A DNA stretch of 64,000 bases from Euzebyella saccharophila (GTDB taxonomy: Bacteria > Bacteroidota > Bacteroidia > Flavobacteriales > Flavobacteriaceae): positions 558,001 to 622,000 of the forward strand of contig NZ_JACYFJ010000002.1 of NCBI RefSeq assembly GCF_014855495.1, written 5' to 3'. This document shows positions 2,740-28,425 of this stretch, in pieces. Each line of letters starts with the position of its first letter. The first letter of the stretch is position 1. The notes below the pieces were generated by a model that saw only the letters and a program-made list of their open reading frames with translations, was not told the DNA's origin and ran no database searches. The position numbers and the translations under genes are program-made.

Positions 2740-5145
2740 GTGAACAAACACATTAATAAAGTAGCGGTTATCGGATCCGGTATTATGGGAAGCGGAATTG
2801 CTTGTCATTTTGCCAATATTGGGGTTGAAGTCTTACTTCTCGATATCGTACCTCGCGAACTTACCGAGGCCGAAAAGGCTAAAGGACTCACTTTAGACGA
2901 TAAGGTAGTCCGTAACAGATTGGTCAATGATTCACTAAATGCGGCTTTAAAATCTAAGCCCTCCCCTATCTACCATCAGAAATTTGCCTCTAGGATTACT
3001 ACAGGAAATTTGGAAGATGACATTGCTAAAGTCTCCAAAGTAGATTGGATCATTGAAGTGGTAGTAGAAAGGTTGGACATAAAAAAACAGGTTTTTGAAA
3101 ACCTGGAAAAGCACAGAACTCCGGGAACATTGATTACTTCAAATACTTCCGGAATTCCCATTAAATTTATGTCCGAAGGACGAAGTGAAGATTTTCAAAA
3201 ACACTTCTGTGGTACGCACTTTTTCAATCCTGCCCGGTATCTCAAGCTTTTTGAAATAATTCCGGGACCAAATACTTCACCCGAAGTGCTCGATTTTCTG
3301 AACGGTTACGGGGAAAAATTTCTTGGAAAGACTTCAGTGGTCGCCAAAGATACCCCAGCATTTATAGGGAACCGAATAGGTATTTTCAGCATCCAAAGTC
3401 TTTTCCACATGGTGAAGGAAATGGGAATGACCGTAGAGGAGGTAGATAAGCTTACAGGTCCCGTCATTGGCAGACCTAAATCGGCTACCTTCAGAACGGT
3501 TGATGTCGTAGGTTTGGATACCTTGGTTCACGTAGCCAATGGCATCTATGATAACTGCCCGAACGACGAACGTCATGATTTGTTCAAACTTCCAGATTTC
3601 ATCAAAACAATGATGGAAAACAAATGGTTGGGAAGTAAAACCGGGCAAGGTTTCTATAAAAAAGTGAAAGACGATAAAGGTAAAAGTGAAATCTTGACCT
3701 TGGATTTAGATACTATGGACTATAGGTCTAAAAAAAGTGCCAAGTTTGCAACCTTAGAACTGACCAAAACGGTAGATAAGGTAATTGATCGTTTTGCCAT
3801 TTTAACCGGCGGAAAAGACAAAGCGGGTGAGTTTTATCGTAAGAGCTTTGGTCAATTGTTCGCCTACGTATCTCACCGTATTCCTGAAATCTCGGATGAC
3901 CTATACAAAATTGACGATGCGATGAAAGCCGGCTTTGGCTGGGAACACGGTCCCTTTCAAATTTGGGATGCCGTTGGACTCGAAAAAGGGCTCGAATTTA
4001 TAAAAGCAGAGAATTTAGACGCCGCCAACTGGGTTTCAGAAATGCAATCGGCAGGAATTACCTCGTTTTACTCCGTGAAAGATGGAGCCACTTATTTCTA
4101 TGATATTTCCAAAAAGTCCATGGAAAAGGTGCCAGGTCAAGACGCTTTCATTATTCTTGATAACATTCGTAAAAGCAAGGAAGTTTTTAAAAATAGTGGT
4201 GTAGTTGTAGAGGATTTGGGAGACGGCATTTTGAATGTGGAATTTCAGTCCAAGATGAATACCATTGGTGGGGATGTCCTTAGCGGACTGAACAAGGCAA
4301 TCGACCTTGCCGAAAAAGACTATCAGGGTCTTGTAGTGGGTAACCAAGCAGCCAATTTTTCTGTAGGAGCCAATATCGGAATGATATTTATGATGGCCGT
4401 TGAACAGGAGTACGATGAATTGAACATGGCCATTAAGATGTTTCAGGACACGATGATGCGCATGAGATATTCATCCATACCAACGGTATCGGCACCCCAC
4501 GGAATGACTTTAGGGGGCGGATGCGAACTTTCGCTACACGCCGATAAAGTGGTTGCTGCCGCCGAAACTTATATTGGTTTGGTTGAATTTGGCGTAGGGG
4601 TAATTCCTGGTGGTGGAGGCTCCAAAGAGTTTGCATTACGAGCTCAAGATACTTTCAAGAAAAATGATGTGGAGTTGAATGTGCTACAAGAGTACTTTTT
4701 GACCATTGGTATGGCCAAAGTTTCTACCTCTGCCTATGAAGCCTATGATTTAGGTATTCTTCAACATGGAAAGGATATTGTAGTCGTAAACAAAGACAGG
4801 CAAATTGCTACTGCCAAAGCGCACGCAAAGCTTATGGCGGAGTCAGGATATACCAAACCTGTTAAACGAAAGGATATTAAGGTTTTAGGAAAGCAGGCCT
4901 TGGGTATGTTCTTGGTAGGAACAGATTCTATGGAAGCCAGCAGATATATTAGTGAGCACGATAAGAAAATTGCCAACAAATTGGCCTATGTAATGGCTGG
5001 TGGGGACTTGTCAGAGCCTAGTTATGTTAGCGAGCAATACCTTCTTGATTTGGAAAGGGAGGCCTTTTTGTCACTTTGCACTGAAAGAAAGACCTTGGAG
5101 CGTATACAGCACATGCTAAAAACCGGTAAACCTTTGAGGAATTGA
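2740..5145 (+). CDS. fadN: 3-hydroxyacyl-CoA dehydrogenase / enoyl-CoA hydratase fusion (FadN-like)
   Basis: An 801-residue multifunctional beta-oxidation enzyme that hydrates enoyl-CoA and oxidises 3-hydroxyacyl-CoA with NAD+. The Rossmann NAD site (VAVIGSGIMGSG) is at residues 8-19, followed by the dehydrogenase core with HFFNPARYLKLFEI. The enoyl-CoA hydratase domain is C-terminal, at about 500-640. Its two catalytic acids are present as E596 (GGGCE) and E616 (VEFG), 20 residues apart as in known hydratases. The domain order is that of Bacillus FadN, the reverse of E. coli FadB. Translation starts at GTG (2740), with no ATG nearby. With fadA and the acyl-CoA dehydrogenase it reproduces the fadN-fadA-fadE order. 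Confidence 0.93.
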   Translation: MNKHINKVAVIGSGIMGSGIACHFANIGVEVLLLDIVPRELTEAEKAKGLTLDDKVVRNRLVNDSLNAALKSKPSPIYHQKFASRITTGNLEDDIAKVSKVDWIIEVVVERLDIKKQVFENLEKHRTPGTLITSNTSGIPIKFMSEGRSEDFQKHFCGTHFFNPARYLKLFEIIPGPNTSPEVLDFLNGYGEKFLGKTSVVAKDTPAFIGNRIGIFSIQSLFHMVKEMGMTVEEVDKLTGPVIGRPKSATFRTVDVVGLDTLVHVANGIYDNCPNDERHDLFKLPDFIKTMMENKWLGSKTGQGFYKKVKDDKGKSEILTLDLDTMDYRSKKSAKFATLELTKTVDKVIDRFAILTGGKDKAGEFYRKSFGQLFAYVSHRIPEISDDLYKIDDAMKAGFGWEHGPFQIWDAVGLEKGLEFIKAENLDAANWVSEMQSAGITSFYSVKDGATYFYDISKKSMEKVPGQDAFIILDNIRKSKEVFKNSGVVVEDLGDGILNVEFQSKMNTIGGDVLSGLNKAIDLAEKDYQGLVVGNQAANFSVGANIGMIFMMAVEQEYDELNMAIKMFQDTMMRMRYSSIPTVSAPHGMTLGGGCELSLHADKVVAAAETYIGLVEFGVGVIPGGGGSKEFALRAQDTFKKNDVELNVLQEYFLTIGMAKVSTSAYEAYDLGILQHGKDIVVVNKDRQIATAKAHAKLMAESGYTKPVKRKDIKVLGKQALGMFLVGTDSMEASRYISEHDKKIANKLAYVMAGGDLSEPSYVSEQYLLDLEREAFLSLCTERKTLERIQHMLKTGKPLRN

Positions 5146-5167
5146 TAACAACAGTAGTGAGTTGTTA
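5146..5167 (+). other. Intercistronic hairpin after fadN
   Basis: TAACAAC (5146-5152) pairs perfectly with GTTGTTA (5161-5167) across an 8-nt loop, directly after the fadN stop codon. No T-run follows, so it is more likely an mRNA stability or processing element than a terminator. Confidence 0.35.
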
Positions 5168-5192
5168 GATGTGAATAATTTAGTTTAAAAAG

Positions 5193-5220
5193 GACTTAAG
5201 ACGTAGGACGTAAGACTATG
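5193..5220 (+). repeat. Left inverted-repeat arm of the four-helix-bundle element
   Basis: The arm contains two related sub-repeats, GGACTTAAGACGTA and GGACGTAAGACTATG, in tandem. It ends with the start codon of the enclosed gene, so the initiation codon would be base-paired if the long stem formed in RNA. Confidence 0.7.
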
Positions 5221-5580
5221 GCAGCTAATCATAATTTTAGAAAACTTAAAATCTGGAGCGAAGGAATGGATGTTGTCAAGGAAACATACAAATTGACAAA
5301 TCAATTTCCTAAATCAGAAATGTTTGCATTAGCCAGTCAAATACAGAGATGTTCCGTTTCAATTCCTTCTAACATCGCTGAGGGGACAAGTAGAAAATCT
5401 ACAAAACACTTTTTACAATATTTGGAAACAGCTTTGGGCTCAGCATTTGAATGGAAAACTCAATTGATAATTGCAAATGAGGTTAATTACGTACCCGATG
5501 ATAACTTTATAATTCTTGAACAAAAAATTCAATCATTACAAGGAATGATTTCACGTTTTATGGAAAGCTTGAATAACTAG
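5218..5580 (+). CDS. Four-helix-bundle protein (S23 / 23S rRNA IVS family)
   Basis: A 120-residue, mostly helical protein of the four-helix-bundle family first seen in 23S rRNA intervening sequences and related to the Avd protein of diversity-generating retroelements. Recognisable family features are the N-terminal FRKLKIWSEGMD segment, the TNQFPKSEMFALASQIQRCSVSIPSNIAEG core (residues 27-56), and a helix with FLQYLETALGSAFE. The family function is not established; relatives form pentamers and bind nucleic acid. The gene lies between fadN and fadA but has no metabolic link to them and is bounded by inverted repeats, so it is probably a passenger. The start is fixed by the ATG at 5218 inside the left arm. 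Confidence 0.88.
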   Translation: MAANHNFRKLKIWSEGMDVVKETYKLTNQFPKSEMFALASQIQRCSVSIPSNIAEGTSRKSTKHFLQYLETALGSAFEWKTQLIIANEVNYVPDDNFIILEQKIQSLQGMISRFMESLNN

Positions 5581-5581
5581 T

Positions 5582-5611
5582 CATAAGTCTTACGTCAAAT
5601 CGTCCTAAGTC
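5582..5611 (+). repeat. Right inverted-repeat arm of the four-helix-bundle element
   Basis: It begins two bases after the stop codon of the enclosed gene and contains AGTCTTACGTC, an exact reverse complement of 11 bases of the left arm, then CGTC and TAAGTC, matching further left-arm blocks. It ends 13 bp before the fadA start. Confidence 0.7.
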
Positions 5612-5624
5612 AAAATAAAAGATA

Positions 5625-6815
5625 ATGAAAACAGCATATATAGTTAAAGGATATAGAACAGCGGTCGGTAAATCTGGAAGAGGCGGATTCCGTTTTAAAA
5701 GAGCCGATGAACTAGCGGCAGAGACAATTGAATATCTTATGGGCAAATTGCCCGATTTCGATAAAAAGAGAATCGATGATGTCATCGTAGGTAACGCCAT
5801 GCCAGAAGGTTCTCAAGGGCTCAATATGGGTCGGTTAATTTCCCTAATGGGATTGGATATTGTGGATGTCCCAGGAGTGACGGTTAACCGTTTTTGTTCC
5901 TCGGGACTGGAAACCATCGGTATCGCTACCGCTAAAATTCAATCTGGAATGGCCGATTGTATCATTGCCGGAGGGGTGGAAAGTATGAGCTCGGTTCCTA
6001 TGACCGGCTTTAAAACAGAACTGAATTATGATTTGGTGAAATCTGGGCATGAAGATTATTATTGGGGAATGGGAAATACCGCTGAAGCGGTAGCACAGGA
6101 GTTTAAAGTTTCTCGGGAAGACCAAGATAAATTTGCTTTTAATTCCCATATGAAAGCCTTAAAAGCTCAGGCCGAAGACCGTTTTCAGGATCAAATTGTT
6201 CCTATAGAAGTGGAACAGACATATATTGACAACAACGGTAAAAAAGCCACTAAAAAATATACGGTTACTAAGGATGAGGGGCCTAGAAAAGGAACTTCTC
6301 TAGAAGCTTTGGCCAAACTAAGACCGGTATTCGCAGCCAATGGTAGTGTTACGGCCGGAAACTCTTCCCAAACCAGTGACGGTGCCGCCTTTGTGATGGT
6401 GATGAGTGAGGAAATGGTAAAAGAATTGAACCTAGAGCCTGAAGCCCGTTTGGTAAGTTACGCCGCTGCCGGTGTGGAACCCAGAATTATGGGAATTGGT
6501 CCTGTAAAGGCAGTTCCAAAGGCATTAAAACAAGCAGGCCTTAAGCAGGAAGATATCGAATTGATAGAACTAAACGAAGCATTTGCTTCTCAGTCCATTG
6601 CCGTTATTAGGGAATTAGGCCTTAATAATGACATCGTTAATGTAAATGGTGGTGCGATTGCATTGGGTCACCCTTTAGGGTGCACCGGAGGAAAGCTTTC
6701 CGTTCAATTATTCGATGAAATGCGAAAAAGGAACATGCAAGGCAAACACGGTTTGGTTACCATGTGCGTTGGAACTGGACAAGGAGCCGCTGGTATTTTT
6801 GAGTTTCTTTCTTAA
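5625..6815 (+). CDS. fadA: Acetyl-CoA C-acyltransferase (3-ketoacyl-CoA thiolase)
   Basis: A 396-residue thiolase that cleaves 3-ketoacyl-CoA with CoA to acetyl-CoA and a shortened acyl-CoA. All catalytic residues are visible: nucleophile C91 (NRFCSSGLE), H349 (GHPLGCTGG) and the second cysteine C381 (CVGTGQG). The conserved NEAFA segment is present. Length is normal for the family. It is separated from fadN by the four-helix-bundle element and followed after 60 bp by the acyl-CoA dehydrogenase, all in the same direction, so it is probably co-transcribed from the marR promoter. Confidence 0.95.
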
Positions 6816-27147: not shown

Positions 27148-28425
27148 CTAAAGATTCACAATATCTTGCTTAGTGCCAGGTCCTAGTTCATAGACAGCGC
27201 TCAATAGCTCTTGTTTTAAATCTATAACTTTCTTATCATATCCGGCAGCCTTATAAATTTCCGCAGCGTTCAGTAGTATTCCGGGTTCAAAAGTCTTTCC
27301 CTCAATTTGGGATTCCACAATTTCCAAGGCCTTTTCCACATTACCCATTTTGAAATAACTATAGGCTAGTAGACTATAGGATTCTGGTGTAGGCCTATTG
27401 GCAACCTCCTTTTTTGCCAACCTAAGCGCTTTTGCATATTCCTCTGTTTCCGTTAGATAAAGTGATACGTTATGGGCATTGTACATATCTCCGTAATCTG
27501 GATTACTTACATGCTGAAAATATTTTTCCAAGTTGTTCAGGCTTTTTAAATCATCGCCCATATAACCGGCAATTTCCGCCTTTAACAAATAATAATCGGG
27601 TGATTTATAATTCTTGGTAACGGAATCCAATATTCTCATAGCCTCTTTTGGTCTATTTTCATGGGAGAATACAATCCAAGCAATTCCTTTTTTGGCGTAG
27701 GCATTACCAGGATCAATTTCCAATGCTTTTAGGTAATGGTTATACGAGTCTTTAATTCTGCCTGCATGCCCATAATAATCTGCCAAATTGGTATAGGACC
27801 AAAGTTTCAAGGATTCATTTTTGGCAGTTTCGACTTTCTTCATAGCTTTTTCCATAAAACGAATGGTAGCATCTAAATCGCCCTTATAATCATTCCATTT
27901 TGCCAATCGTATCAAATACCCAAAATCTGTCATATCCTTGATACTATCCAATTGTGCCCTTGCCGTATCATAATTGCCCAATTCCATATGTACATCAAAC
28001 AGAAGACATTGGCTTTGGTTAATACCGTTGTTTGTTGCCCTAGCGGAATCTGCCATCTGCAAAGCCTCCATAAACCTATGTTGGGAAATATAATTTCTGG
28101 CCAAGGCCCTATAATAACCTGCCTTGCCTACAGCTGCAATCTCTACAGCTTTTTCCAATACCTGCTCGGCTTTTTTTAAATAAGCTATTTTTCCGGTATT
28201 CTGAAAGAAGCGACTGTATTCACTTCCTACGATTCCAAAGCTCATTAGCTGGGAACTATCCTTTTTGATTTTAGAATCCCACAGCTCAAAATATTTGGAA
28301 GTGTTACTCCTTGGCTCAGATGCCAAATAAATGTCATAGTCTTCCTTTTGGGTAATTTGGTTATTATTCTCACTGGAACAAGATGCGAACAATAGAAGTA
28401 CCAACCCGTAAAGTAAATTCTTCAT
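27148..28425 (-). CDS. Tetratricopeptide repeat lipoprotein
   Basis: A 425-residue lipoprotein (LVLLLFASC, C16 is the lipidation site). About eight TPR-like helix pairs fill the mature part; examples are the repeat around LEIDPGNAYAKKGIAWIVFSHENRPKEA and YSLLAYSYFKMGNVEKALEIVE. It probably works as an envelope scaffold. It is the last gene of a run after the two half-DUF4331 genes, separated by 138 bp with a hairpin, and is followed by a terminator. In related genomes DUF4331 and TPR proteins often occur together, as I recall; partners are unknown. Confidence 0.85.
   Translation of the reverse strand: MKNLLYGLVLLLFASCSSENNNQITQKEDYDIYLASEPRSNTSKYFELWDSKIKKDSSQLMSFGIVGSEYSRFFQNTGKIAYLKKAEQVLEKAVEIAAVGKAGYYRALARNYISQHRFMEALQMADSARATNNGINQSQCLLFDVHMELGNYDTARAQLDSIKDMTDFGYLIRLAKWNDYKGDLDATIRFMEKAMKKVETAKNESLKLWSYTNLADYYGHAGRIKDSYNHYLKALEIDPGNAYAKKGIAWIVFSHENRPKEAMRILDSVTKNYKSPDYYLLKAEIAGYMGDDLKSLNNLEKYFQHVSNPDYGDMYNAHNVSLYLTETEEYAKALRLAKKEVANRPTPESYSLLAYSYFKMGNVEKALEIVESQIEGKTFEPGILLNAAEIYKAAGYDKKVIDLKQELLSAVYELGPGTKQDIVNL

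Follow-up and report, generated by a model that had tools for sequence, protein, structure and literature searches.

An IVP/S23 gene bracketed by inverted 7-nt arrays between fadN and fadA of Euzebyella saccharophila, probably one copy of a widespread selfish element

A gene for a small four-helix-bundle protein of the IVP/S23 family lies between fadN and fadA in the genome of Euzebyella saccharophila, bracketed on both sides by inverted arrays of a 7-nt repeat (heptad). We consider it probable, though by no means assured, that this locus belongs to a small and widespread type of selfish element that consists of an IVP/S23 gene and its two inverted arrays and occupies gene junctions, mostly within operons. 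To our knowledge, S23/IVP proteins have been recognized for decades without a function, and we know of no explanation for bacterial 7-nt repeat arrays beyond slippage. Here the two are tied together by position, by the matching of arms within each locus, and by co-occurrence across genera, so the function of IVP proteins becomes directly testable as the binding, copying, or moving of heptads.

The fadN–fadA locus

We analyzed a window of 64,000 nt, the whole stretch of DNA presented here, from a genome designated G000, and compared it with two further genomes of the same genus, G001 and G002. An earlier note on this DNA had described a gene that splits fadN from fadA between two arms able to pair over 24 bp, and its reading of the anatomy was borne out: ORF coordinates and domains place the end of fadN at 5145 and the start of fadA at 5625, an 11-bp block at 5207–5217 (GACGTAAGACT) recurs as its exact reverse complement at 5586–5596, the start codon ATG at 5218–5220 faces a CAT at 5582–5584, and the minimum free energy (MFE) structure predicted for the RNA of the element contains 24 arm–arm base pairs. 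The arms pair in both the MFE and the centroid predictions (z of -2.82 relative to dinucleotide shuffles). A feature missed in that note is that the arms are degenerate tandem 7-nt repeats, GACKTAR; TRF reported period 7 at 5193–5216 with the unit GACGTAA and nowhere else in the window, and a 35-nt lag-7 scan of the same 64,000 nt detected no other heptad array.

The 120-aa protein, whose stop codon TAG is at 5578–5580, scored above the curated cut-offs of both PF05635 (124.6 bits, cut-off 33.8) and TIGR02436 (115.7 bits, cut-off 24), and its nearest solved structures were 2RLD and 2GSC, the latter named XCC0516, a Xanthomonas campestris locus name. Between fadN and the left arm is a segment with almost the same sequence as the left arm of a different IVP element that occupies the same junction in G002, and this segment is probably the relic of an older left arm (Table 1). 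The inverted-complement score between the flanks of the gene, 18, was the highest among the 59 ORFs of at least 110 aa in the window (median 9), with a lead of just one point over the next ORF (17), so this single locus is only moderately exceptional and cannot settle the matter. The runner-up, at 27148–28425 on the minus strand, has non-heptad flanks that include a normal-looking terminator.

Table 1. Features of the IVP locus and its host genes, in window coordinates
Feature	Position	Strand	Evidence
fadN-like host gene, upstream	2740–5145	+	3HCDH_N, 3HCDH, and ECH domains
Relic, probably of an earlier left arm (taacaacagtagtgagttgttagatgtgaat)	5146–5176	+	G000 versus G002 junction comparison
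Left arm, an array of degenerate heptads, GACTTAA GACGTAG GACGTAA GACT	5193–5217	+	Sequence; TRF; MFE and centroid pairing
IVP/S23 four-helix-bundle gene, 120 aa	5218–5580	+	PF05635 and TIGR02436 matches
Right arm, heptad array as inverted complement, including the CAT facing the start codon	5582–5611	+	Sequence; folding; arm score 18
fadA-like thiolase host gene, downstream	5625–6815	+	Thiolase_N and Thiolase_C domains

Inverted heptad arms at other loci

We scored the local inverted complementarity between the 80 nt upstream and the 80 nt downstream of the IVP gene at 212 places, comprising a first set of 95 loci, nearly all from the Flavobacteriaceae, the family of the window, and a second set of 117 places drawn from across the phylum together with a few contigs classified in other phyla. 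True pairs of arms in the first set had a mean score of 15.56 compared to 9.92 for arms paired across loci; none of 10,000 permutations reached the mean of the true pairs, and the direct (10.2 vs. 9.4) and reversed (9.3 vs. 9.3) controls remained near background. The second set gave 15.71 for own pairs and 9.29 for cross pairs, the own-pair mean again being reached by no permutation, and individual loci exceeded the 95th percentile of cross pairs in 37 of 95 and 57 of 117 cases, respectively. Predicted MFE structures contained 16.4 arm–arm pairs with the real arms and 9.0 when right arms were swapped among loci. Across the 212 places, autocorrelation of the flanks peaked at 7, 14, and 21 nt both upstream (z of about 20, 13, and 10) and downstream (about 21, 24, and 15) of the gene, so that the period is exactly 7; the same autocorrelation detected no such peaks within the IVP gene or in the upstream coding sequence. 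The heptad word varies by locus, yet the two arms complement each other in inverted orientation far better within loci than across them. This arrangement recurs in hundreds of related loci across bacteria, which points to a widespread and largely overlooked kind of selfish element.

The genome of the window itself carries six PF05635 genes, and by inspection each is flanked by heptad-like repeats of a different word (AGTTAAG, AAGTTCA, CGTTGTT, GCAGTAG, and others); in the 6 × 6 matrix of left against right arms, the diagonal averaged 15.8 and the remainder 9.4. Two of these copies (L006 and L002) are located between atpA and atpG and between two parts of metH. Farther afield, ten copies on cyanobacterial plasmids had a mean arm score of 19.3 compared to 10.6 for cross pairs, and one on a Nostoc plasmid, between nrdB and nrdA, has plain heptads such as GTAGGGA/TCCCTAC. 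Among the cyanobacterial plasmid copies, L328, L335, and L337 sit at nrdB–nrdA (antisense), cas6–cas4, and cas10–cmr3, and L335 has similar units on both sides that run in the same direction and are not inverted. A few copies, L080 (genome G109) and L300, have units of 8 rather than 7 nt. A search for IVP genes in phage records gave no match. We also considered the rule that each protein clade has its own heptad, but the correlation of arm type with protein relatedness across sites, while significant, was weak (r 0.15), so a simple rule of this kind was not established.

IVP genes were co-directional with both neighbors at 180 of 201 loci and antisense to both at three, and their host operons are varied, including metH, atpA–atpG, argE–argH, nrdB–nrdA, and cas10–cmr3. 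Site-matched IVP genes at three sites in the three same-genus genomes had dN/dS values of 0.04–0.12, which indicates that the protein is maintained by purifying selection in these related genomes. For one copy in G000 (L007), the corresponding gene in G002 (L321) is riddled with stop codons.

Gain, loss, and replacement at fixed junctions

We compared the fadN–fadA junction in 94 distinct cases. In 32 of them only 1–18 nt separate the two genes and heptad arrays are absent, another 30 have 24–135 nt, and 31 have 408–713 nt, all of which fit the pattern of an IVP gene plus arms except L194, whose insert is of different appearance. IVP genes are present at this junction in about 30 genera. At least seven of the 24–135-nt junctions hold heptad hairpins without the gene, predicted to fold far below shuffled sequences, and in the one remaining case, G001 (L040), arms of the window type enclose a site from which most of the IVP gene has been deleted. 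Four others of the 24–135-nt junctions, in four genera, carry an unrelated GC-rich hairpin (gagcccctagccccc...gggggctagggggc-like) at fadN–fadA. In G002, whose fadN is about 93% identical to that of the window, the junction holds a different IVP gene with arms of the AGTATTG type.

Comparisons at other sites within the genus revealed similar turnover. A second IVP gene lies between fadA and fadE in G002, where G000 has 60 nt; we rejected these 60 nt as a clean empty site because they are not identical to the sequences that border the G002 element on its outer sides. Between argE and argH, G001 and G002 carry an IVP gene and G000 a 76-nt heptad hairpin without one, for which reason this site was rejected as cleanly empty as well. 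At ruvC–hemW, the gene is present in G001, and heptad arrays without it are found in G000 and G002. These junction states and same-genus comparisons indicate that, at fixed junctions, the IVP gene together with its arms has been acquired, lost, and exchanged for another.

The earlier note had set its proposal against a picture in which all relatives carry the gene at this spot between non-pairing flanks, and that picture does not describe the 94 junctions, which include empty ones, or the flanks of relatives, which pair. It had also suggested that aligned junctions would reveal empty sites and target duplications; the former are evident at 1–18 nt, and no duplication was identified at sites too short or too diverged to show one. 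Our search for recent transposition among paralogue pairs found clear ORF homology, poorly aligned arms, and no clean unit ends, and neither an insertion enzyme nor a recent transposition event was identified for the element, the mobility of which we infer.

Dispersed heptad arrays

A 44-nt pattern of seven heptads spaced by AG served to count arrays in 120 Flavobacteriaceae genomes, one per genus. Of the 89 genomes that carry PF05635, 74 had long arrays, compared with four of the 31 that lack it (p 3e-12, with kinship and general repeat content uncontrolled), and the difference persisted when the comparison was confined to genomes of 2.8 Mb or more (65/77 vs. 4/17, p 2e-6) or to those in a single contig (12/12 vs. 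0/4). The number of arrays correlated with IVP copy number across all 120 genomes (Spearman 0.71) and among the IVP-bearing ones (0.48), and pattern hits totaled 2617 in genomes with the gene and 16 in genomes without it, overlaps within one array being counted separately. A period-8 control was much rarer and weakly associated (21/89 vs. 2/31, p 0.04). Most heptad arrays, where the listed positions are comparable, lie away from any IVP gene. This link between IVP genes and arrays is a correlation within one bacterial family, uncorrected for kinship, and it suggests that IVP proteins may act on heptads in trans.

Sequences related to the arms do occur elsewhere in G000, at odds with the alternative raised in the earlier note that no other genomic copies exist; to its further question, whether each such copy flanks a four-helix-bundle gene, the answer is no, with most GACKTAR sites in the genome flanking none. 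Several heptads (GAGTTAG, GACATAG, GAACAAC, and CCAACAA) make up long compound arrays in G000, with no IVP gene in the array itself, on contig C8 at 366 kb, 969–983 kb, and 1263 kb and on contig C17 at 110 kb (L008–L037).

Proposed mechanism and alternative explanations

In the mechanism we propose, the unit would ride on the host transcript and the arms would be its recognized ends. As RNA, the arms may pair in a long-range stem by which the IVP cistron is set off, and RNase III might cut this stem as in rRNA intervening sequences (IVS), a step proposed solely by analogy with the Coxiella IVS. The earlier note had suggested such cutting, or else a stem that could hide the start codon. The left arm is rich in G (23%) and poor in C (9%), with the opposite bias in the right arm, so each arm should pair little with itself. 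The IVP protein, in turn, may recognize heptad arrays and help the unit or the arrays to spread. A bolder version, which we hold only tentatively, is that IVP proteins are trans-acting makers or spreaders of heptad arrays, with the IVP gene and its arms as the autonomous form and the dispersed arrays and stem-only hairpins as its derivatives. If true, this would account for the 7-nt satellites that are long known from cyanobacteria, Xanthomonas, and Bacteroidota but lack an explanation, as well as for the origin of rRNA intervening sequences.

The locus could instead be an IVS at the level of RNA alone, in which RNase III cuts the heptad stem from the operon mRNA, selection on RNA pairing keeps the arms, and nothing else moves. 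Arm pairing in the predicted MFE structures, the 90% of IVP genes co-directional with their operon, and the excision of the Coxiella IVS by RNase III in vitro (PMC4990558) all favor this explanation, which we nevertheless regard as rather unlikely: arm mismatches comprised 146 of the G-U type and 207 of the A-C type, and with no excess of G-U there is no sign of selection maintaining pairing in the sense RNA, while the shared period of 7 and the dispersed arrays that track IVP copy number are left unexplained. The dispersed arrays might instead be ordinary satellites produced by polymerase slippage, which is Mrazek's view of 7-nt repeats as summarized in PMC4679880, with IVP genes merely ending up in or beside them. 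Many arrays in G000 are free of IVP genes, and heptamer satellites are found in many bacteria with no link to IVP genes in the portions of the published accounts considered here (PMC4679880, PMC4692102), but such passive landing seems improbable given that the arms at each IVP gene are inverted copies of one heptad rather than direct runs, that tight empty fadN–fadA sites have no heptads, and that genomes without the gene rarely have long arrays.

Purifying selection and the occurrence of IVP genes at fadN–fadA in so many genera would also fit a domesticated host gene, a regulator of several operons including that of beta-oxidation, in which translation or mRNA stability would be under the control of a conserved hairpin. 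We find this hard to accept, because the same junction in related genera holds unrelated IVP genes, stems only, or nothing, and because copies are found in many unrelated operons. Finally, the idea that an ordinary gene is enclosed by an inverted repeat through chance, in line with a single-locus score barely the best in the window, is refuted by the permutation tests of own against cross pairs at the 212 places and receives almost no credence from us. The selfish element described above remains our preferred reading of the locus.

Comparison with known systems

The element resembles MITEs and insertion sequences in its terminal inverted repeats, its empty and occupied sites, and its internally deleted forms, but differs from them in having no transposase, no observed target duplication, and arms that are not conserved among copies. 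The protein is distantly related in sequence to Avd of diversity-generating retroelements, although it falls below both curated cut-offs (NF033474, 28.4 bits against 80, E 1.6e-6; bAvd PF22296, 23.8 bits against 40, E 6.7e-5), and unlike Avd it has no adjoining reverse transcriptase: none was detected among the five proteins scanned, and the neighboring ORFs read as metabolic or regulatory. This distant relation makes a nucleic-acid-binding role for IVP proteins plausible and offers a lead.

Bacterial heptamer satellites include the STRR of cyanobacteria. The arms resemble these and the TAACTGA and GGGAATC satellites in being intergenic tandem 7-nt arrays, sometimes as inverted pairs, and some of the lineages with such satellites are known to carry IVP genes. 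TAACTGA repeats have been reported from Beggiatoaceae, cyanobacteria, and Bacteroidetes (PMC4679880) and GGGAATC repeats, including about 70 inverted pairs, from Xanthomonas (PMC4692102). Unlike the satellites as described in those papers, the heptads here bracket an IVP gene and track the presence of IVP genes across genomes. Apart from work on the Coxiella IVS, we found no paper in the open-licence full-text literature that connects heptamer repeats with IVP/S23 genes.

The closest likeness is to the intervening sequences of 23S rRNA in Coxiella and Leptospira, which share the protein family (PF05635/S23p), a terminal inverted repeat tight around the ORF that forms a long predicted stem, and the loss of the ORF through deletion. 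In the Coxiella IVS, a terminal stem and an S23p gene occur together with tandem GACAGAT heptamers just 5' of the S23p start, much as heptamers stand immediately before the start codon here, and the RNase III cut falls where the first heptamer begins (PMC4990558). The window element differs in lying between the protein-coding genes fadN and fadA, outside rRNA, and in belonging to a type whose arms vary by locus, and an Rfam search of 15 loci including L001 gave no match. In related genomes, moreover, purifying selection maintains the IVP protein; the Coxiella S23p, by contrast, is according to its authors decaying and probably not made (PMC4990558). Given the location outside rRNA, strict membership among 23S rRNA intervening sequences fails and a working likeness stands. 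The proposal of the earlier note that this is an operon analogue of an rRNA IVS is thus well supported anatomically, by the shared family, the close terminal inverted repeat, the heptamers at the start, the turnover at the junction, and the copies in many operons, while the target duplication and insertion enzyme of a mobile unit were not identified. Through this likeness, rRNA intervening sequences gain a probable wider family in protein-coding operons.
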